Origin: a virus
DNA length: 24,549 bases
Reading direction: 5' to 3' (one strand)
Virus record (IMG/VR): IMGVR_UViG_3300030333_002837
Span: 1 to 24,549 of that record
Part shown: one piece after another, positions 890 through 23,778 of the stretch
Layout: each line of letters opens with the position of its first letter
Position numbering within the stretch: the stretch's first letter is position 1
Translations under genes and position numbers: made by a program
The notes under the pieces: generated by a model
The model's database searches: none
The model's input: the letters and a program-made list of their open reading frames with translations, nothing else
Told to the model about the DNA's origin: nothing

Positions 890-1120
890 TTATCTACTTT
901 CTTTATAATTTATATCTTTATTACTTGTCAAACAATCTATTATCATTTTACTATTATTAAAACAACTTTCATGAATATACACGTAACCTTTCATTTTTAT
1001 TATATCTTGAGGGTCGAATTCATGATACTTTTTAGGTAATTGATGTAATTGATGAGGTATATAACGTTGGTTATTTACTGTCAACACTCCTGACATGTTA
1101 TTGATTCTAAATTTATTCAT
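890..1120 (-). CDS. Hypothetical protein (76 aa) under a repeated promoter-like element
   Basis: A 76-residue, slightly basic protein, His- and Tyr-rich in the middle (QRYIPHQLHQLPKKYHEFD), with no recognised domain. It lies immediately downstream, in the leftward direction, of copy A of the TATTATCC-N9-CGTATTW element (1137-1160), with an AT-only leader to the ATG at 1120. It is therefore likely to be the first gene of a leftward transcription unit continuing through the next gene one base away. The function is unknown. Confidence 0.62.
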   Translation of the reverse strand: MNKFRINNMSGVLTVNNQRYIPHQLHQLPKKYHEFDPQDIIKMKGYVYIHESCFNNSKMIIDCLTSNKDINYKESR

Positions 1121-1136
1121 ATTTATTATTTATATA

Positions 1137-1160
1137 TATTATCCTACTTTATTCGTATTT
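1137..1160 (-). promoter_or_regulatory. Repeated bipartite promoter-like element, copy A
   Basis: On the plus strand it reads TATTATCC, nine bases, CGTATTT. On the minus strand this is AAATACG-N9-GGATAATA, ending 17 bases before the ATG at 1120. It overlaps the last codon and stop of the upstream gene. The same spacing and sequence recur at 3028, 3289, 3416 and 3810. Confidence 0.6.
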
Positions 1161-1454
1161 GTTTTGTGTCTCTGGCCGTGTGTATAGCAAATTTCTATTT
1201 TCTTCGGCCATATCTTCTAAATTCCAAATATACGAGTCAAACACAGTAGAATCAGAGTAATTCTCTTTATCTTGACCCATCCACTCTATTATATCTTCAC
1301 AAGTATTTATGTTTTCTATTATTACTCTTTCAATTTTAACATCTTGTAACATACTATTTAATTCTTTATCTGTTTGAACAAAGAACATACTTATTGTTCC
1401 TATAGTGAATCCAAATATCCCACCTATTATTGCTGTTTGATTTTCTATTTTCAT
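1149..1454 (-). CDS. Small single-pass membrane protein (101 aa)
   Basis: A 101-residue protein with one hydrophobic segment at about residues 7-27 (TAIIGGIFGFTIGTISMFFV), preceded by the short polar N-terminus MKIENQ and followed by an acidic, probably helical soluble domain. This suggests an inner-membrane anchor with the acidic part on one side; the topology cannot be fixed from sequence alone. It follows the lipoprotein gene by nine bases, so a cell-envelope function shared with the lipoproteins is plausible (inference). The 3' end overlaps promoter-like copy A and carries one copy of the TGTATAGCA word inside its coding sequence. Confidence 0.65.
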   Translation of the reverse strand: MKIENQTAIIGGIFGFTIGTISMFFVQTDKELNSMLQDVKIERVIIENINTCEDIIEWMGQDKENYSDSTVFDSYIWNLEDMAEENRNLLYTRPETQNKYE

Positions 1455-1463
1455 AATTTTTTT

Positions 1464-1652
1464 TTAATCTATTTCATCACAGTTTTCACAATCATCTTTA
1501 TAGAATTCATTTATTAAAGAATCTGTTTTATACTTGTAATTTATCCATAATTTATCTAATTCATAATTAATTTCTACTTGTCTTTGTGTTAGTTTATTTA
1601 CAGTACAAGATGTAGTAAATAAAACTAATATTATTATTATTATCTTTTTCAT
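1464..1652 (-). CDS. Small predicted lipoprotein (62 aa)
   Basis: The open frame extends upstream to 1715, but the ATG at 1652-1650 is preferred. It gives a textbook lipoprotein signal, MKKIIIIILVLFTTSC, with the lipobox cysteine at residue 16, whereas the longer start would bury that signal. The mature part is about 46 residues, charged, and has a second Cys pair near the C-terminus (DDCENCDEID). It is the last of three consecutive tiny lipoprotein genes transcribed leftward. Phage lipoproteins are known in some systems to block receptors and exclude superinfecting phages (for example T5 Llp); that role here is inference only. Confidence 0.7.
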   Translation of the reverse strand: MKKIIIIILVLFTTSCTVNKLTQRQVEINYELDKLWINYKYKTDSLINEFYKDDCENCDEID

Positions 1653-1662
1653 ACTCTTTATT

Positions 1663-1773
1663 TTAATAGAATGAAGGACAGTTTGTATGAACTGTAGTAT
1701 GTTGAACACTTCCACAAGATGAAACTATCATAATCATTCCTATTATTACTATTATTGTTATTATCTTTTTCAT
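1663..1773 (-). CDS. Tiny predicted lipoprotein (36 aa)
   Basis: A 36-residue open frame starting at the ATG at 1773-1771 and ending with TAA at 1665-1663. It reads MKKIITIIVIIGMIMIVSSC followed by a 16-residue tail (GSVQHTTVHTNCPSFY). The N-terminus is a lysine-plus-hydrophobic lipoprotein signal with the lipobox cysteine at residue 20, so the mature peptide would be only 17 residues. It sits between two other lipoprotein genes with gaps of 10 and 4 bases, which supports it being real despite its size. The tail shares a CG[ST]...H...C.P...Y pattern with the upstream gene. Confidence 0.6.
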   Translation of the reverse strand: MKKIITIIVIIGMIMIVSSCGSVQHTTVHTNCPSFY

Positions 1774-1777
1774 ATTC

Positions 1778-1942
1778 TTAGTATTGAGGGTGAGATAATG
1801 GAGAACCTGAACAACTCTTTTTCGCTGGATATCCAGTTCCTACATGATAATAACTAGTTCCACAACTACTCATCATCATTAGTCCTATTACTAAAGATAT
1901 CCAAGTTATTAAAAATACATTTCTACTTTTTCTTTCACTCAT
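1778..1942 (-). CDS. Small predicted lipoprotein (54 aa)
   Basis: A 54-residue open frame from the ATG at 1942-1940 to TAA at 1780-1778. It begins MSERKSRNVFLITWISLVIG and continues LMMMSSCG: a positively charged N-terminus, a hydrophobic core, and a lipobox ending at Cys27. The mature part is about 28 residues and rich in Gly, Ser, Tyr and Pro, with one more Cys. It is the first of a three-gene lipoprotein cluster whose members are 4-10 bases apart. The leader contains AGAAATTATG with no Shine-Dalgarno sequence. Its function is unknown; envelope modification or exclusion is possible. Confidence 0.62.
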   Translation of the reverse strand: MSERKSRNVFLITWISLVIGLMMMSSCGTSYYHVGTGYPAKKSCSGSPLSHPQY

Positions 1943-1971
1943 AATTTCTATTTTTATTTAGTTAATATTAG

Positions 1972-2052
1972 TGGTAGGAGAGGAATCGAACCTCTCTGTA
2001 TACGTGGAATCTCACCACCTTACTATCCATAACTACCTATCGAGACATACCA
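1972..2052 (-). tRNA. tRNA-like element, isotype unresolved
   Basis: On the minus strand a perfect T-arm is visible, AGAGG-TTCGATT-CCTCT (2000-1979 region), followed by CCTACCA, which pairs at 6 of 7 positions with TGGTATG at 2052-2046. Position 8 is T, and a D-loop with the conserved GG (ATAGGTAG) follows. The anticodon arm is not clean: the best stem, GTGG/CCAC, encloses the loop TGAGATT, which lacks the usual T at position 33. There are about seven more bases between the D and T arms than in a standard tRNA. It may be a class II tRNA, a decayed tRNA, or a tRNA mimic. No CCA is encoded. Confidence 0.42.
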
Positions 2053-2067
2053 TTAAGGTATGGAATT

Positions 2068-2337
2068 TTAATCTAATCCGTCTCTATTACCCTTCAAGAT
2101 TCCACTTTTTTTGTCGATCTGGTGGAGGGCGTGTATAGCATTACTAAGTGGATCGACCTCACGTTTAGTTTCGTTTTCCCATATTTCTTTCGCTCTAAGT
2201 TCTATCATTTCATAACTATTAGGACCTGTAAGAGTCTCTGAGTAACCTAAATGATGTTCTTGACCGAAACTATCTATCACATGGATATTATAGTGTGTAT
2301 TTCCTTGATATTTATCTATTATTATTCTTCTACTCAT
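2068..2337 (-). CDS. Hypothetical protein (89 aa)
   Basis: An 89-residue protein beginning MSRRIIIDKYQGNTHYNIHV. The first 45 residues look like a small beta-rich domain (RIIIDKY, HYNIHVID, HHLGYSETL) and the rest is helical and charged. No family was recognised. Its start overlaps the stop of the upstream gene as ATGA (2337-2334), so the two are translationally coupled. The segment near its 3' end carries one copy of the nine-base word TGTATAGCA (2132-2140), read in frame. The tRNA-like element lies just downstream. Confidence 0.66.
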   Translation of the reverse strand: MSRRIIIDKYQGNTHYNIHVIDSFGQEHHLGYSETLTGPNSYEMIELRAKEIWENETKREVDPLSNAIHALHQIDKKSGILKGNRDGLD

Positions 2338-2588
2338 TTTATTACTATATCATTTATTATTAACTCGTATTCTGGTTGTTCTAACTTTCTCATTATTGCA
2401 TAGTGTATTGGGTCTTCTTGATGAGTCTTAAATGAAGTATATCCATTTGATCCTTCACTCAATACCTCTACATCACCATAACCAGGCCAGTAAGGGTTTT
2501 TATTTACTTCTACTATTATTTGTTTTCTTTCTTTAACATTACTCCAATCTTGTTGAAGGAACATAGTTTTTAATTCTTGTCTAGTCAT
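2334..2588 (-). CDS. Hypothetical protein (84 aa)
   Basis: An 84-residue protein starting MTRQELKTMFLQQDWSNVKE, with a central Gly/Pro/Tyr-rich piece (NPYWPGYGDVEVLSEGSNGY) and a helical acidic end. No recognised domain, signal peptide or membrane segment. It overlaps the next leftward gene by four bases (ATGA). The leader on the minus strand is AAAGAAATTATG, again without a Shine-Dalgarno sequence. Upstream lies a 143-base gap holding a long imperfect inverted repeat (2676-2716) that may act on this gene's transcript. Confidence 0.65.
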   Translation of the reverse strand: MTRQELKTMFLQQDWSNVKERKQIIVEVNKNPYWPGYGDVEVLSEGSNGYTSFKTHQEDPIHYAIMRKLEQPEYELIINDIVIK

Positions 2589-2675
2589 AATTTCTTTTTA
2601 ATTAGTGTGACATTAGGGTATTACTCTCTTTATTTAACTACCAATTGTCACAGTTATACATTCACTTAAAAGGAG

Positions 2676-2716
2676 GAGATGATACTCACTACTCAGTACT
2701 TCATGAGTACCATCTC
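2676..2716. repeat. Imperfect inverted repeat (13-bp arms) in an intergenic gap
   Basis: GAGATGATACTCA (2676-2688) and TGAGTACCATCTC (2704-2716) are inverted copies with one mismatch, separated by 15 bases. The repeat lies between two leftward genes. Read leftward it is followed by CTCCTTTT, a weak T-run, so it may be an inefficient terminator, a processing hairpin, or a binding site for a dimeric regulator. Confidence 0.5.
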
Positions 2717-2731
2717 GACCTATCCAACTAA

Positions 2732-2983
2732 CTAAACTAGTTCTTTACCTCTTAGTATCATTGGTATATTATTTGTAGCAGTGTAAGACTTATATTTTGA
2801 CCAACATGGTAGTTTAGTTAAAGTTTCTTTCATAATTTCGAATACTTTGTCATGGTTATAAGTTATTTCTTTACCTTTTTTAGTCACAAAAGTTATAATT
2901 TGATTTTTACCTATTAATGACTTTCTTACTACAAATCTTTTAGATTTTAATACATTTACTGTGTTTTCTTCTTTCTTTTTCAT
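2732..2983 (-). CDS. Small basic hypothetical protein, paralogue of the gene at 3541-3765
   Basis: An 83-residue basic protein. Residues about 15-55 (KRFVVRKSLIGKNQIITFVT, then KKGKEITYNHDKV) match the product of 3541-3765 nearly residue for residue, and both end with a C..KYKSYT.TNNIP motif. The two are clearly a duplicated pair. The core looks like a small beta-sheet domain with a basic face, and nucleic-acid binding is possible but not shown. Copy B of the promoter-like element ends 45 bases before the ATG, the same distance as copy E before the paralogue, so gene and promoter may have been duplicated together. Confidence 0.7.
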   Translation of the reverse strand: MKKKEENTVNVLKSKRFVVRKSLIGKNQIITFVTKKGKEITYNHDKVFEIMKETLTKLPCWSKYKSYTATNNIPMILRGKELV

Positions 2984-3027
2984 AATTTCTTAGTTTAATT
3001 AGTTTATATTTATTTTAATTTCATTTA

Positions 3028-3051
3028 TATTATCCAATACCATTCGTATTT
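3028..3051 (-). promoter_or_regulatory. Repeated bipartite promoter-like element, copy B
   Basis: TATTATCC (3028-3035), nine bases, CGTATTT (3045-3051) on the plus strand. It lies 45 bases upstream of the leftward gene that starts at 2983. This copy lacks an obvious TGCTATACA word nearby, although GTATATAC lies close by on the upstream side. Confidence 0.6.
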
Positions 3052-3121
3052 ACATTGTAAAAGTATATACTTTGTTTAGTTGATATTTTTAGTTGTCTAG
3101 TATGATACTACATCTCTGTGT

Positions 3122-3265
3122 CTATAATACTTCTATTGACATATTTAGTTCATCAAATAACTTACTATATTTACTTTCATATACATTATCAAGTGTATAA
3201 ACTTCACCATTCACTGTCATTTCATAAATATCATTATCAGAATCTACTTTAATTGTTATAGTCAT
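3122..3265 (-). CDS. Small acidic hypothetical protein (47 aa)
   Basis: A 47-residue open frame from the ATG at 3265-3263 to TAG at 3124-3122, beginning MTITIKVDSDNDIYEMTVNG and ending in an acidic helix (KLFDELNMSIEVL). The pattern of two or three short beta strands followed by a helix is compatible with a small folded domain. It sits 24 bases downstream of promoter-like copy C with an A-rich leader (AATTAAAAATAATAACTATG), which supports its being expressed. It lies between the two paralogous basic genes. The family and function are unknown. Confidence 0.6.
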   Translation of the reverse strand: MTITIKVDSDNDIYEMTVNGEVYTLDNVYESKYSKLFDELNMSIEVL

Positions 3266-3288
3266 AGTTATTATTTTTAATTCATATA

Positions 3289-3312
3289 TATTATCCATGG
3301 TGATTCGTATTA
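3289..3312 (-). promoter_or_regulatory. Repeated bipartite promoter-like element, copy C
   Basis: TATTATCC (3289-3296), nine bases, CGTATTA (3306-3312). It lies 24 bases before the leftward start at 3265. Upstream on the minus strand are ACACAAAAC, CGGCCA and the TGTATAGCA word. The stretch from CGGCCA to GGATAATATATAT closely resembles that at copy A. Confidence 0.6.
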
Positions 3313-3334
3313 GTTTTGTGAGAGTGGCCGAGTG

Positions 3335-3409
3335 CTATACACCTTGGGAGACGGGAGATTTGAAGTCGGTGTGCCTCGCTTGTATGGTCAATGAAGTACC
3401 AATCATCAT
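3335..3409 (-). CDS. Possible leader peptide (24 aa) downstream of promoter copy D
   Basis: The only leftward open frame after copy D starts with two adjacent ATGs (3409-3404) and ends at TAG (3337-3335), coding for MMIGTSLTIQARHTDFKSPV plus four more residues. Its start is only seven bases from the GGATAATA box, so it would have almost no leader, and its codons come from a GC-rich stretch unlike neighbouring genes. It may be chance, with copy D instead driving a small RNA or simply the gene at 3122-3265. Confidence 0.2.
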   Translation of the reverse strand: MMIGTSLTIQARHTDFKSPVSQGV

Positions 3410-3415
3410 TTATTA

Positions 3416-3439
3416 TATTATCCATTCACTCTCGTATTT
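3416..3439 (-). promoter_or_regulatory. Repeated bipartite promoter-like element, copy D
   Basis: TATTATCC (3416-3423), nine bases, CGTATTT (3433-3439). No normal gene starts just downstream; the next leftward products are a doubtful 24-aa frame and the gene at 3122-3265 behind copy C. Upstream lie the palindrome ACTCGCGAGT (3451-3460) and two TGCTATACA words. Confidence 0.55.
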
Positions 3440-3461
3440 ATTTCGGGAACACTCGCGAGTA

Positions 3462-3490
3462 TGCTATACACGGCGAGCCGTGCTATACAT
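3462..3490. repeat. Two TGCTATACA words flanking a GC hairpin
   Basis: TGCTATACA occurs at 3462-3470 and 3481-3489, and CACGGC-GA-GCCGTG between and across them forms a short hairpin. Further copies of the word lie at 3333-3341 and 3856-3864, and in inverse orientation at 1181-1189 and 2132-2140. Confidence 0.6.
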
Positions 3491-3515
3491 CGGCCCCTTC
3501 GGGGCCTTTTGTATT
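3491..3515 (+). terminator. Rho-independent terminator-like hairpin, plus-strand orientation
   Basis: GGCCCC-TTC-GGGGCC (3492-3506) is followed by TTTTGTATT. The T-run lies on the plus-strand side, so as a terminator it would stop rightward transcription, although the neighbouring genes run leftward. On the minus strand the hairpin is followed by GATGTATAGC with no T-run. Confidence 0.5.
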
Positions 3516-3540
3516 ACTAGTTTTATAACAACACTCTGTA

Positions 3541-3765
3541 TTATCTACAGAATGTTGGTATGTTGTTAGTATTAGTATAAGACTTATACTTCTTGAAACA
3601 GTTCATAGACTCGAATCTATCTTTGTTTCTGTTGTACACTTCATCATGATTGTAAGTTACTTCTTTACCTTTCTTAGTTGTGAAGGTGATGATTGTGTTA
3701 GTTCCGATTAGACTCTTTCTAATTACGAATCTCTTTGTTGTGATGTTGTTTACTTTGTTTGACAT
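3541..3765 (-). CDS. Small basic hypothetical protein, paralogue of the gene at 2732-2983
   Basis: A 74-residue basic protein, MSNKVNNITTKRFVIRKSLI and onward, with the conserved core KRFV.RKSLIG.N.IITF.TKKGKE.TYNHD and the C-terminal KYKSYT.TNNIP shared with the product of 2732-2983. It is the first leftward gene after the divergent region and starts 45 bases downstream of promoter-like copy E. It is slightly shorter than its paralogue and ends TFCR where the other ends MILRGKELV. A small beta domain with a basic surface is likely; the function is unknown. Confidence 0.7.
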   Translation of the reverse strand: MSNKVNNITTKRFVIRKSLIGTNTIITFTTKKGKEVTYNHDEVYNRNKDRFESMNCFKKYKSYTNTNNIPTFCR

Positions 3766-3809
3766 AGTAGTTTAATTTATTTAGTTAGTATTTATTTAAT
3801 TATCATTCT

Positions 3810-3833
3810 TATTATCCATGTCTATTCGTATTT
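3810..3833 (-). promoter_or_regulatory. Repeated bipartite promoter-like element, copy E
   Basis: TATTATCC (3810-3817), nine bases, CGTATTT (3827-3833). It lies 45 bases upstream of the leftward start at 3765. On the upstream side it shares TTCGGGA (in the sense TCCCGAA) with copy D, at the same distance, and the TGCTATACA word lies 22 bases from the CGTATTT box in both copies. Confidence 0.62.
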
Positions 3834-3868
3834 ACTTCGGGAGTGCGAGGCAAAATGCTATACATACG

Positions 3869-3884
3869 CGCCGCTGGCGCGGCG
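3869..3884. repeat. GC-rich hairpin next to a TGCTATACAT word
   Basis: CGCCGC (3869-3874), loop TGGC, GCGGCG (3879-3884) forms a six-pair GC stem in otherwise AT-rich DNA. It follows TGCTATACAT (3856-3865) by three bases. No T-run follows on either side, so a simple terminator role is not supported. Confidence 0.55.
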
Positions 3885-4125
3885 GCTTAATGTTTCTAGT
3901 AAAAGGTAGAATGTTTGATGGGGTTGAGGTAGTTAGATCTTATACCTCACATACATTAGTGATAGATGAGGTGAGAGAGATATGACGAACGTAAAGACCT
4001 ATGGAATAGAGAATAGGAGGATAGGATGGGGGCTGGGCAAATAAAACGCGTTTTTCCTGGGGAAAAGGGGGGAGGAGGGGAGATGCAAGACAACACCCCG
4101 GTGTTTATAATGCTTTTTTATTTGG

Positions 4126-4156
4126 GTACCCTTTATATAGAAGTACCCTATATATC
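4126..4156. promoter_or_regulatory. GTACCC direct repeats before the rightward operon
   Basis: GTACCCTTTATATA (4126-4139) and GTACCCTATATATC (4143-4156) are near-identical copies 17 bases apart, and the first is part of the palindrome GGGTACCC. They lie 35-65 bases upstream of the first rightward gene. Their spacing, about one and a half helical turns, and position suggest an operator or an activator site for late transcription (inference). Confidence 0.45.
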
Positions 4157-4190
4157 TTGTAGCTTGCAAATTAAATAACAAAAATAATAT

Positions 4191-5612
4191 GTGATTATTA
4201 GTGTAACTAATAACGTAAAAACTAGTGACAACGATAGTAATATGATGATAACGCCTCTAACAAAATCTTTAAGTCCACTTCTTGCTGAAGAAAAAGAAGA
4301 AGAAGAAAAAGTTGTATATCCTGAGATTTCTACTAAAAAAGTATATACTGGTGGAGTGGGTAAACTTCCTTTAGTTTTAGAGATGCCACAGAAGATAGAA
4401 TTTGATGAGGAGGAAAATACTACATTTGTAACGCCTAAAAACGCTAATCAAGAGCAGATAGATAAAGAAATGGAATCTTTTAATAAGAACCAAGAGATCC
4501 AAATGGAAGTAGCATACGCACAGAGAGGTGATTTAAACGCTAATAACGAGCTAATAAAAAACTACGAAAAGAACCATAACGAGAAATATAGTGAACAGAT
4601 AGCTGATGGAAGAGAAATGACATTTGGAGACAAAGTGGATATGACTCTATCGGTGGGAGGTTTAGCCCCAGTTTGGGGGATATTTTCCGATGCCGCGAAT
4701 CTAGTACAAAATCTAGGACAAGCTGCTGCAGCTGGGATAACAGGTGACTTTGATGAAATGAAGCATGATTTAGAAAATGCTGGTTGGGCCACGGCGGGAA
4801 TAATACCATTTGGAATTGGACAGTTTTTTACCGGTATAAAGCATGCTAAAAACTCTAAGAATATTGTTAATACAGTAAAAAACACTAGCGGCACTAAAAA
4901 TATAAACTCTGAATCACTACTTGATTTCATAAGAACAGCGGATGATGCTGCTATTCAGAACTCTAAATTACTAACTAATGAACAAAAAGTATCAATACTA
5001 AATACTAGAGTAGATGCAAGGATAGCTAAAGCTGCTAATGCTGGGGACGTGGTCAATGGTGTAGACTATTATAAAGGAGCTACACATTATGGGGAAGTGA
5101 ATAATATAGAGAAATATAATACAGTAAAAAATCAAGTTGTTGCTGGTCAAACTAGTTACGGGAGAACAGTAGATGCAAATATGTCTAATATAAACTTTAC
5201 AGCAGCTACAGATCTAAAACCAGACATGGTAAATAAAATAGGTACACAAAGTGGTAGAAATATATATGAGGTTACTTTTCCAGATGGTAGTACACAAAGA
5301 TTTTGGAGATCTTCAGGAAAGGGAGGTAAAACAATAAAAATGCCAGATGGTACAAATGTAAGTTCGGAAGGATTTTTCGGTACACTTCCTGGTCACATGG
5401 ATATAAAACTACCTTATGATCAAGCGGTTCAAATGGCTATTAACTCAGGGGCAAAAATGGGAACAAAGCAATTTGATGATTATGTAAGACACTTTCAAGG
5501 TACTAACGGTTGGTTTGTTAAATCTGGTGATTGGCAAGGATATGGATCTACAACTTTTCAACAAACTGGTGCTGTGTTAAAAAATTGGTTCGATAGTGGC
5601 CTATTAAAATAA
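4191..5612 (+). CDS. Large protein with pre-toxin-like hydrophobic centre; possible virion or effector protein
   Basis: A 473-residue protein starting at GTG (4191) behind an A-rich leader; ATGs at 4242 and 4245 are alternatives. Residues 1-145 are acidic and low-complexity. Residues about 145-220 hold a Gly- and Ala-rich hydrophobic segment with P.WG.F.DAANL...G and a second stretch GWATAGIIPFGIGQFFTG, a style seen before the toxin domain of polymorphic toxins (pre-toxin regions) and in some membrane-penetrating virion proteins. The C-terminal 120 residues are a separate aromatic-rich domain (GHMDIKLPYDQA, HFQGTNGWFVKSGDW). No catalytic motif was recognised. Its stop overlaps the next start as TAATG, so the two are coupled. 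It could equally be an internal virion (ejection) protein. Confidence 0.75.
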   Translation: MIISVTNNVKTSDNDSNMMITPLTKSLSPLLAEEKEEEEKVVYPEISTKKVYTGGVGKLPLVLEMPQKIEFDEEENTTFVTPKNANQEQIDKEMESFNKNQEIQMEVAYAQRGDLNANNELIKNYEKNHNEKYSEQIADGREMTFGDKVDMTLSVGGLAPVWGIFSDAANLVQNLGQAAAAGITGDFDEMKHDLENAGWATAGIIPFGIGQFFTGIKHAKNSKNIVNTVKNTSGTKNINSESLLDFIRTADDAAIQNSKLLTNEQKVSILNTRVDARIAKAANAGDVVNGVDYYKGATHYGEVNNIEKYNTVKNQVVAGQTSYGRTVDANMSNINFTAATDLKPDMVNKIGTQSGRNIYEVTFPDGSTQRFWRSSGKGGKTIKMPDGTNVSSEGFFGTLPGHMDIKLPYDQAVQMAINSGAKMGTKQFDDYVRHFQGTNGWFVKSGDWQGYGSTTFQQTGAVLKNWFDSGLLK

Positions 5613-22890: not shown

Positions 22891-22927
22891 AAAGAGTCGA
22901 GGCTTCGGCCTCGGCCCTTTATTTTTA
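22891..22927 (+). terminator. Rho-independent terminator after the capsid gene
   Basis: CGAGGC-TTCG-GCCTCG (22898-22913) is a perfect six-pair stem closed by a UUCG tetraloop, flanked by AAAGAGT and GCCCTTTATTTTTATT. It probably lets capsid mRNA be stopped or stabilised separately from the downstream genes. Confidence 0.78.
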
Positions 22928-22950
22928 TTAATTTTATTATATATTATATT

Positions 22951-23778
22951 ATGGCAAAAAAGAAAAAAATAGAGGTAGAAGAACCTCAAGTTCAAGAACA
23001 AATAGTAGAAACACCGGAAGATATTAAAGAAAAACCTCTTCCAACACCAGAAAACACATGGGAAGTAAAAGATAGATTGTATTATTTAAGAGGTAGAGAA
23101 AAACCAATATCTTATATGATTAGATCTTCAGATATATATTACTTTGACGAAGATTTAGGTTATGAAAGAGAGTTAAAATATACAAAAAACCAAAAAACCC
23201 CATTTGTAGATGAAATGAAGGGAGACCAAAGATTAGATCATATAATTTTTAGAAATGGTAGTTTGTTTGTTCCTAGAAACAAACAGACATTGCAAAAATT
23301 ATTATCTTTGTATCATCCGCATAGAGATCAAATATTTGAAGAGTATAAACCTATTAAGGAGGCTGAAGATCAAATGACAATATTAGAAATGGAAGCAGAT
23401 GCTTTGTTAGCTGCTAAAAATATGGATATTGACATGGCTGAAGCAATACTTCGTGTTGAGAACGGTTCTAGTGTGTCTAACATGAGTTCTAAGGAGCTTA
23501 AACGTGATTTACTTATATTTGCTAAGAAAAATCCTAAACTTTTCTTAGATTTAGCTGTTGATGAAAATGTTCAACTTAGAAATTTTGGTATTAAAGCTAC
23601 AGAATTAGGTATATTAAGCCTATCTAGCGATCAAAGGTATTTTTCTTGGGCATCGAATGGTAGAAAATTACTTACTGTTCCTTTTGATGAACACCCATAT
23701 TCAGCTTTAGCCGCTTGGTTTAAAACTGATGAAGGTATGGAAATTTATTCCAATATAGAAAAAAGATTAAACGATTAA
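22951..23778 (+). CDS. Conserved post-capsid phage protein (275 aa)
   Basis: A 275-residue protein with a basic-acidic N-terminus (MAKKKKIEVEEPQVQEQIVE), a beta-rich part (WEVKDRLYYLRGREKPISYM, RELKYTKNQKTPFVDE, RNGSLFVPRNKQTLQKLL) and a helical C-terminal half (EAEDQMTILEMEADALLAAK, LKRDLLIFAKKNPKLFLDLA). Similar proteins follow the capsid gene in other Bacteroidota phages, in my recollection, without a confirmed role; head completion or assembly is the likely context. It shares its leader and MAKKKK start with the scaffold gene. It is followed by a strong hairpin. Confidence 0.75.
   Translation: MAKKKKIEVEEPQVQEQIVETPEDIKEKPLPTPENTWEVKDRLYYLRGREKPISYMIRSSDIYYFDEDLGYERELKYTKNQKTPFVDEMKGDQRLDHIIFRNGSLFVPRNKQTLQKLLSLYHPHRDQIFEEYKPIKEAEDQMTILEMEADALLAAKNMDIDMAEAILRVENGSSVSNMSSKELKRDLLIFAKKNPKLFLDLAVDENVQLRNFGIKATELGILSLSSDQRYFSWASNGRKLLTVPFDEHPYSALAAWFKTDEGMEIYSNIEKRLND

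Follow-up and report, generated by a model that had tools for sequence, protein, structure and literature searches.

What reads a promoter-like element that is repeated with strict regularity in a viral genome and yet does not follow the promoter consensus of the Bacteroidota, a phylum in which Escherichia coli promoters do not work? This question is raised by IMG/VR record IMGVR_UViG_3300030333_002837, a 24.5-kb stretch (24,549 nucleotides, hereafter the window) from a marine bacterial virus with a GC content of about 33%. Its leftward arm consists of small genes and bears the repeats, and genes for GroEL/GroES, holin, terminase, portal, and capsid lie in its rightward arm. Terminase identity is 64% with podovirus MW202828, 47% with Flavobacterium elemo phages, 32-39% with Cellulophaga and Tenacibaculum phages (among the matches listed), and 73-82% with five motif-bearing IMG/VR genomes used in the comparisons. 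Judged from sequence, the element is almost certainly a promoter, and we lean modestly toward its being read by a sigma factor that the phages themselves encode.

The window contains exactly five copies of the bipartite motif TATTATCC-N9-CGTATT (1137, 3028, 3289, 3416, and 3810; copies A to E), always on the same strand, as the original prediction had stated, against an expectation of 0.00 in 100 dinucleotide shuffles. Relaxing the search to three or fewer mismatches brings out no further notable copies in the window (9 found vs. 4.5 expected). Four of the copies lie 17-45 bases upstream of a leftward ATG, with distances measured along the minus strand from the box end (Table 1), and at copy D an ATG opens a 24-residue open reading frame (ORF). 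The claimed flanks are likewise present on reading, CGGCCA-N5-CACAAAAC being common to copies A and C and TCCCGAA to D and E. Where the original prediction needs amendment is in the extent of the conserved unit, which exceeds the two boxes and runs from -36 to +1. Copy positions follow from the exact match, and the numbering of boxes and +1 from site logos of relatives. The predicted +1 is a purine at all five copies. Their -35 parts vary in quality: copies A and C have a good one, that of B is fair, and those of D and E are weaker. One gene start changes as a consequence: ORF 3122-3298 begins inside copy C, so that with transcription from 3283 its start must be the ATG at 3265, leaving 47 residues.

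The element is by no means peculiar to the window. A motif scan of viral contigs yielded at least 118 stretches, 115 of which gave 209 sites with enough flank, and in no locus did both orientations occur. When whole records were counted, all 42 motif-chosen records, of which the window is one, contained the motif; in 39 it lay on one strand only, and control matches numbered two in total. Contigs selected on the phage sigma protein alone (the best 80 of 393) carry the motif at one or no mismatch in 39 of 50 and 24 of 30 cases, or 63 of 80. Around the sigma gene in these 80 short loci, a weight matrix set at 8 bits found 110 sites in the sense orientation and none in antisense; at 12 bits, 65 of the 80 loci had sites. 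The same orientation bias holds in 63 arms or full records (458 sense vs. 10 antisense sites, at least two sites in every genome) and in 46 longer arms chosen by sigma only (326 vs. 6, with the element in all 46). An even spread through coding regions, which would have spoken against the original prediction, is not what is seen: the element is confined to one arm and one strand with few exceptions, and is nearly absent from the late strand. At one or no mismatch it is found in none of five sigma-negative relatives (phi38:1, phi18:3, Gundel_1, MW202828, and elemoA). A 21-base strict pattern had a single match in a collection of 84,980 bacterial and archaeal species, inside a kinase-like coding region, and thus does not represent a host regulon at that stringency. 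The notion of a phage-specific promoter class is borne out across tens of genomes, and the class belongs to a clade of uncultured phages related to the Flavobacterium/Cellulophaga podoviruses.

In full, the element pairs an upstream box, ACAAACTAAATACGA, spanning -36 to -22 with a -10 box, GATAATA, that lies beyond a spacer and occupies -12 to -6; position +1 is taken by a purine. Logos numbered from the conserved purine, built together with the covariation set from 51 of the 63 genomes after removal of near-identical sigmas, extend the upstream part to TTACAAACTAAATACGA (-38 to -22), show the spacer to be free, and add a pyrimidine at -1 directly before the purine. Conservation across the 326 sites is most pronounced in the -10 box (G-12 99.4%, A-11 99.7%, T-7 99.1%), and A-36, C-35, and A-34, each at 95-96%, mark an upstream element at a fixed distance that covers -35, where the region reads CAAA; position -13 is mixed (G about 40%, A 0.32). 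Because the weight matrix could itself have selected the +1 purine, sites were rescanned without any column after -6, and the sigma-chosen genomes still gave 175 A, 133 G, 5 T, and 0 C at +1, that is, a purine in 308 of 313 (98%), with T or C at -1 in 260 of the 313. A -10 hexamer with A-11 and T-7, a purine some 6-7 nucleotides past it, and a fixed upstream element are hallmarks of sigma-70-family promoters, and the spacing of boxes and purine points to sigma-70-type promoter geometry. The ATG of an ORF of at least 25 codons falls exactly at +1 in 85 of 458 sites (30 expected from base frequencies), which suggests that some genes may be expressed from leaderless messages; in Flavobacterium johnsoniae most mRNAs bear leaders (PMC6847099). 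Strict searches miss, among others, lineages with an altered -13 base or an altered upstream box. By eye, one genome (G044) keeps the GATAATA -10 and replaces the AAATACGA box with TTAAATAATT in three copies, another (G058) has ACGA-N9-CGATAATA, and T-13 plus AACACG accompanies a GSIK/GAIK variant of the sigma in what may be a single lineage.

A search for a phage sigma factor elsewhere in the genome, as the original prediction had proposed, does return a sigma-70 factor in genomes that carry the element. It is a protein of about 250 residues on the early strand, found in two full-length records. Its sigma region 2 scores above the Pfam cut-off, and its region 4 falls slightly short. Sigma70_r2 (PF04542) scores 29.6 and 24.4 against a cut-off of 24 in these two, and lies over the cut-off in nine of 14 genomes and below it in four more; TIGR02937 reaches 48.7-65.9 against 42.9 bits in six of six, the PHROG family RNA polymerase sigma factor matches at 1e-22, and the listed matches of the predicted fold (pLDDT 75, pTM 0.47) are sigma factors. 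The protein falls far under the cut-off for the FliA/WhiG family TIGR02479 (best 59.1 vs. 189.6 bits), and sigma-28 is its second-best PDB profile match. The Q and T columns of the RpoD segment IRQAIT, the place that reads -12 in sigma-70, correspond to an invariant G106 and R109 in 59 phage sigma sequences. The sigma and a neighboring helix-turn-helix protein of about 208 residues are encoded in all five full-length records examined, and neither is present in elemoA or MW202828. For the neighbor, neither sequence nor fold comparison with the PDB gave an informative relative, and one viral model matched it. One genome (G016) holds two such pairs, at 3078-4447 and 64292-65661.

The window ends before the sigma and helix-turn-helix genes; in its relatives both stand where the same arm ends. 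Every one of the 14 motif records that are at least 60 kb long possesses the sigma, its frame being interrupted in two (G015 and G039). It is absent from seven of 20 motif-selected records including the window; in these the motif arm leaves the contig end near the expected place, and they were counted neither way. Fifteen terminase-selected fragments gave no sigma and the motif at a contig end in two, and carry little weight as most hold no early arm. The five sigma-negative relatives named above all lack it.

The distribution of host promoter boxes is the reverse of that of the element. The Bacteroidota signals, TAnnTTTG at -7 and TTTG at -33, are not seen in the logos, which upholds the earlier view that the element does not fit this consensus. 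TAnnTTTG is enriched before ORF starts in MW202828 (9 starts), elemoA (10), phi38:1 (7), and phi18:3 (9), with no more than 1 in 200 random shifts as high, and in these sigma-negative genomes the clear enrichment sits on the late strand. None of six sigma-clade sequences (five sigma-bearing genomes and the window, 0-2 starts) is so enriched. Conversely, members of the sigma clade have 5-14 early-strand sites of the element, whereas three of the four relatives have none and one has a single site. The published -7 element of F. johnsoniae consists of T-12, A-11, T-8, T-7, T-6, and G-5 (PMC6847099); the phage element resembles these primary promoters in A-11, T-7, and short A-rich leaders, but differs at -12, -8, -6, -5, and in the upstream box, and the genomes tested do not combine the two classes. 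Sigma-negative relatives have early-arm repeats of their own. A perfect 16-bp palindrome, GTGTCGTTAACGACAC, occurs 14 times in MW202828 (43744-55170; L124, L125), all in the early-type arm and often 30-50 nucleotides before an ATG, and is a different early-arm element. Cellulophaga phage phi38:1 carries, on the minus strand of 11.4-31.8 kb, AACACTATCA 10 times, mostly just upstream of leftward-arm start codons, and ACTATCAAA 11 times, with one occurrence on the other strand.

Known systems offer partial parallels. Middle promoters of phage T4 combine a MotA box near -30 with a -10 TATAAT, and the present element shares this plan of a box at about -30, which an activator-like partner could read, and a separate -10, here GATAAT rather than TATAAT. 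Sigma-28 (FliA) promoters read TAAAGTTT-n11-GCCGATAA with a GATAA core in the -10 (PMC2859248). That core and G-12 are shared; the phage -35 CAAA is A-rich and lies about 1 bp further upstream than TAAA, and the phage element is without the GCC extended -10 and the TAAA -35 and has the additional conserved box AAATACGA at -29 to -22. The phiEco32-like phages are podoviruses with divergent arms whose sigma (phi32_gp36, SaPh711_gp47) directs the host core to a phage-only consensus, which in phage 7-11 is bipartite like the present element (PMC8948821). In that group sigma promoters serve middle and late genes, whereas the present class is confined to the early-type arm, and the consensus and host group differ from those of the present phages. 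Searches of an open-licence library turned up no description of such a promoter class from phages of the Bacteroidota.

Our preferred mechanism, by a modest margin, is one in which host core RNA polymerase, carrying the phage-encoded sigma of about 250 residues with its regions 2 and 4, would read the element, possibly assisted by the helix-turn-helix protein encoded beside it, and would drive the small genes with which the leftward, early-type arm opens, some of which seem to lack a leader. The reversal between host box and element, the invariant glycine and arginine of the sigma, the GATAA core, and the near-absence from cellular genomes favor this reading. That many related uncultured viruses share the element and also encode a sigma factor suggests that the phages swapped the host promoter code for one of their own. 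The original prediction had offered an altered host polymerase or a phage polymerase as reader; the former is favored as the probable reader because element-bearing genomes encode a sigma-70 factor, and both initiation at the predicted +1 and recognition by the sigma are what we infer from comparison of the genomes. Several observations pull the other way. As many as 322 of the 326 sites lie before the sigma gene, and the last site stands a median of about 2 kb from the helix-turn-helix gene, so that for most sigma operons there is no site immediately ahead. Host -7 boxes are not enriched in the 1.2 kb before the first site (31 found vs. 38 expected in the 47 of 63 genomes with enough DNA ahead of it), and nothing visible would thus start the cascade. 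Covariation of promoter bases with columns of the sigma or its neighbor is weak and does not cluster in region 2.4. Sigma clade and motif clade coincide, such that shared descent could explain the association, and the sigma could instead serve a separate late-gene element of the same clade.

That last point leads to a serious rival, which we consider possible though clearly the less probable: the element is an immediate-early class read by the host's own RNA polymerase through one of the host sigmas, whether primary or alternative, with a taste unlike TTTG/TAnnTTTG, and the phage sigma made from this arm then serves late genes, as in phiEco32 and 7-11 phages. The placement of nearly all sites before the sigma gene fits it well, as does an arm layout like that of phiEco32-like phages, in which genes so placed are early and host-read from sigma-70 promoters and the sigma is a middle product (PMC8948821). 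The late genes, moreover, lack host-box enrichment and have a different, AT-only element that would be a natural target for the sigma. This block reads TTAATTTTATTATATATTATATT-ATG, follows a terminator-like hairpin, and leads into the gene that comes next after the capsid. It was recognized by eye at 63 of 65 loci (of 80 capsid loci, 65 were used) and may be a late promoter or a signal for translation; at this place elemoA carries a host box. Weighing against host reading are the differences from the F. johnsoniae -7 element (PMC6847099), the absence of the strict pattern as a regulon from the 84,980-species collection, and the fact that the element is seen only in sigma carriers or in fragments ending before the sigma position. 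A virion-carried sigma-like or polymerase activity encoded by the giant gene that ends the structural arm (2577-3041 amino acids in five genomes), starting early transcription before the encoded sigma takes over, would solve the problem of the missing starter promoter but is quite improbable. Its segment RGILDLIxEYKPESGVPLAAYINKFLPARAIEAS resembles sigma region 2 by eye, and NCBIfam SigI matches at E 0.029; profile comparison with the phage sigma, however, gave a probability of 1.5%, none of 22 giant-protein members had a Pfam sigma match, neither a PDB sigma match nor a polymerase match was obtained, and presence in the virion is deduced from gene position and relatives' annotation. The sigma-like domain was therefore set aside as suggestive by eye and without support from profile methods. 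A broader version, improbable as well, holds that the host promoter code was dropped for both arms, the element serving as early class and the AT-only block as late class, with start-up by a virion-delivered factor, perhaps that sigma-2-like segment, and the sigma and its helix-turn-helix partner acting later. The giant protein also includes a FDFDDTLAKSNS stretch with a weak polynucleotide kinase PHROG match.

Two further readings are very unlikely. The T7 promoter reads TAATACGACTCACTATAGGG, and the (T)AATACG of the element with GG about 10 bp later resembles it, as though a phage single-subunit (T7-type) RNA polymerase started at GG. The spacer, however, is one base short, and the first G of GG, at -13, is G in only about 40% of the 326 sites, the near-invariant purine lying further on. 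PF00940 is found in none of 15 records (T7 control 1e-110), nor is the Rx3Kx6-7YG pattern found in any giant protein, its one match being an 812-residue ORF of genome G031. With no such enzyme in these records and the purine placed elsewhere, a T7-type promoter was rejected, and the phage polymerase of the original prediction falls with it, the giant virion-arm proteins being equally devoid of polymerase matches. That the repeats are operators or other regulatory or replication elements would suit their number and largely intergenic position, and has hardly any likelihood in view of their strict orientation toward genes, the purine in 98% at 6 nucleotides past the -10 hexamer, and the excess of ATG exactly at +1, all unlike a symmetric operator.

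A 92-nucleotide direct repeat (2962-3053 and 3744-3835) spans promoter and start of the similar small genes behind copies B and E (Table 1), as though a promoter and its gene were duplicated as one unit. The leftward arm also has six copies of GTATAGCA (1182 and 2133 on the plus strand; 3333, 3462, 3481, and 3856 on the minus strand), four of which stand a short way upstream of a promoter (one each at C and E, two at D); the sequence is frequent in genome G031 too. GC-rich hairpins (GGCCCCTTCGGGGCC, GCCGCTGGCGCGGCGGC, ACTCGCGAGT, and CGGCGAGCCG) crowd between promoter units at 3450-3520 and 3865-3890, against the AT-rich background. A tRNA suspected by eye near 1970-2050 was not found.

Table 1. 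Coordinates of promoter copies, the genes behind them, and other features (window positions unless a genome is named; aa, amino acids)
Feature	Position	Strand	Particulars
Promoter copy A	1131-1167	-	upstream box 1153-1167 (-36 to -22, ACAAAACAAATACGA); -10 GATAATA 1137-1143; predicted +1 1131; predicted to serve ORF 890-1120 (76 aa); box end to ATG 1120, 17 bases
Promoter copy B	3022-3058	-	upstream box 3044-3058 (ACAATGTAAATACGA); -10 3028-3034; predicted +1 3022; predicted to serve ORF 2732-2983 (83 aa); box end to ATG 2983, 45 bases
Promoter copy C	3283-3319	-	upstream box 3305-3319 (ACAAAACTAATACGA); -10 3289-3295; predicted +1 3283; predicted to serve ORF from ATG 3265; box end to ATG, 24 bases
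Promoter copy D	3410-3446	-	upstream box 3432-3446 (CCGAAATAAATACGA, weaker -35 part); -10 3416-3422; predicted +1 3410; ATG 3409
Promoter copy E	3804-3840	-	upstream box 3826-3840 (CCGAAGTAAATACGA); -10 3810-3816; predicted +1 3804; predicted to serve ORF 3541-3765 (74 aa); box end to ATG 3765, 45 bases
Small leftward ORF behind copy A	890-1120	-	
Small leftward ORF behind copy B	2732-2983	-	paralogue-like to 3541-3765 by eye
Small leftward ORF behind copy C	3122-3265	-	start corrected, 47 aa
ORF behind copy D	3335-3409	-	24 residues
Small leftward ORF behind copy E	3541-3765	-	
Terminator-like hairpin and AT-only block	22900-22953		TTAATTTTATTATATATTATATT abutting ATG of gene after capsid
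Giant last structural-arm gene, genome G026	43516-52641 (L134:3516-12641)	+	

As such, the element and the sigma factor offer a testable promoter-sigma pair for a widespread group of uncultured phages, whose promoter may be independent of the host's own signals. The start-site rule corrects start codons, and some of the genes look leaderless.

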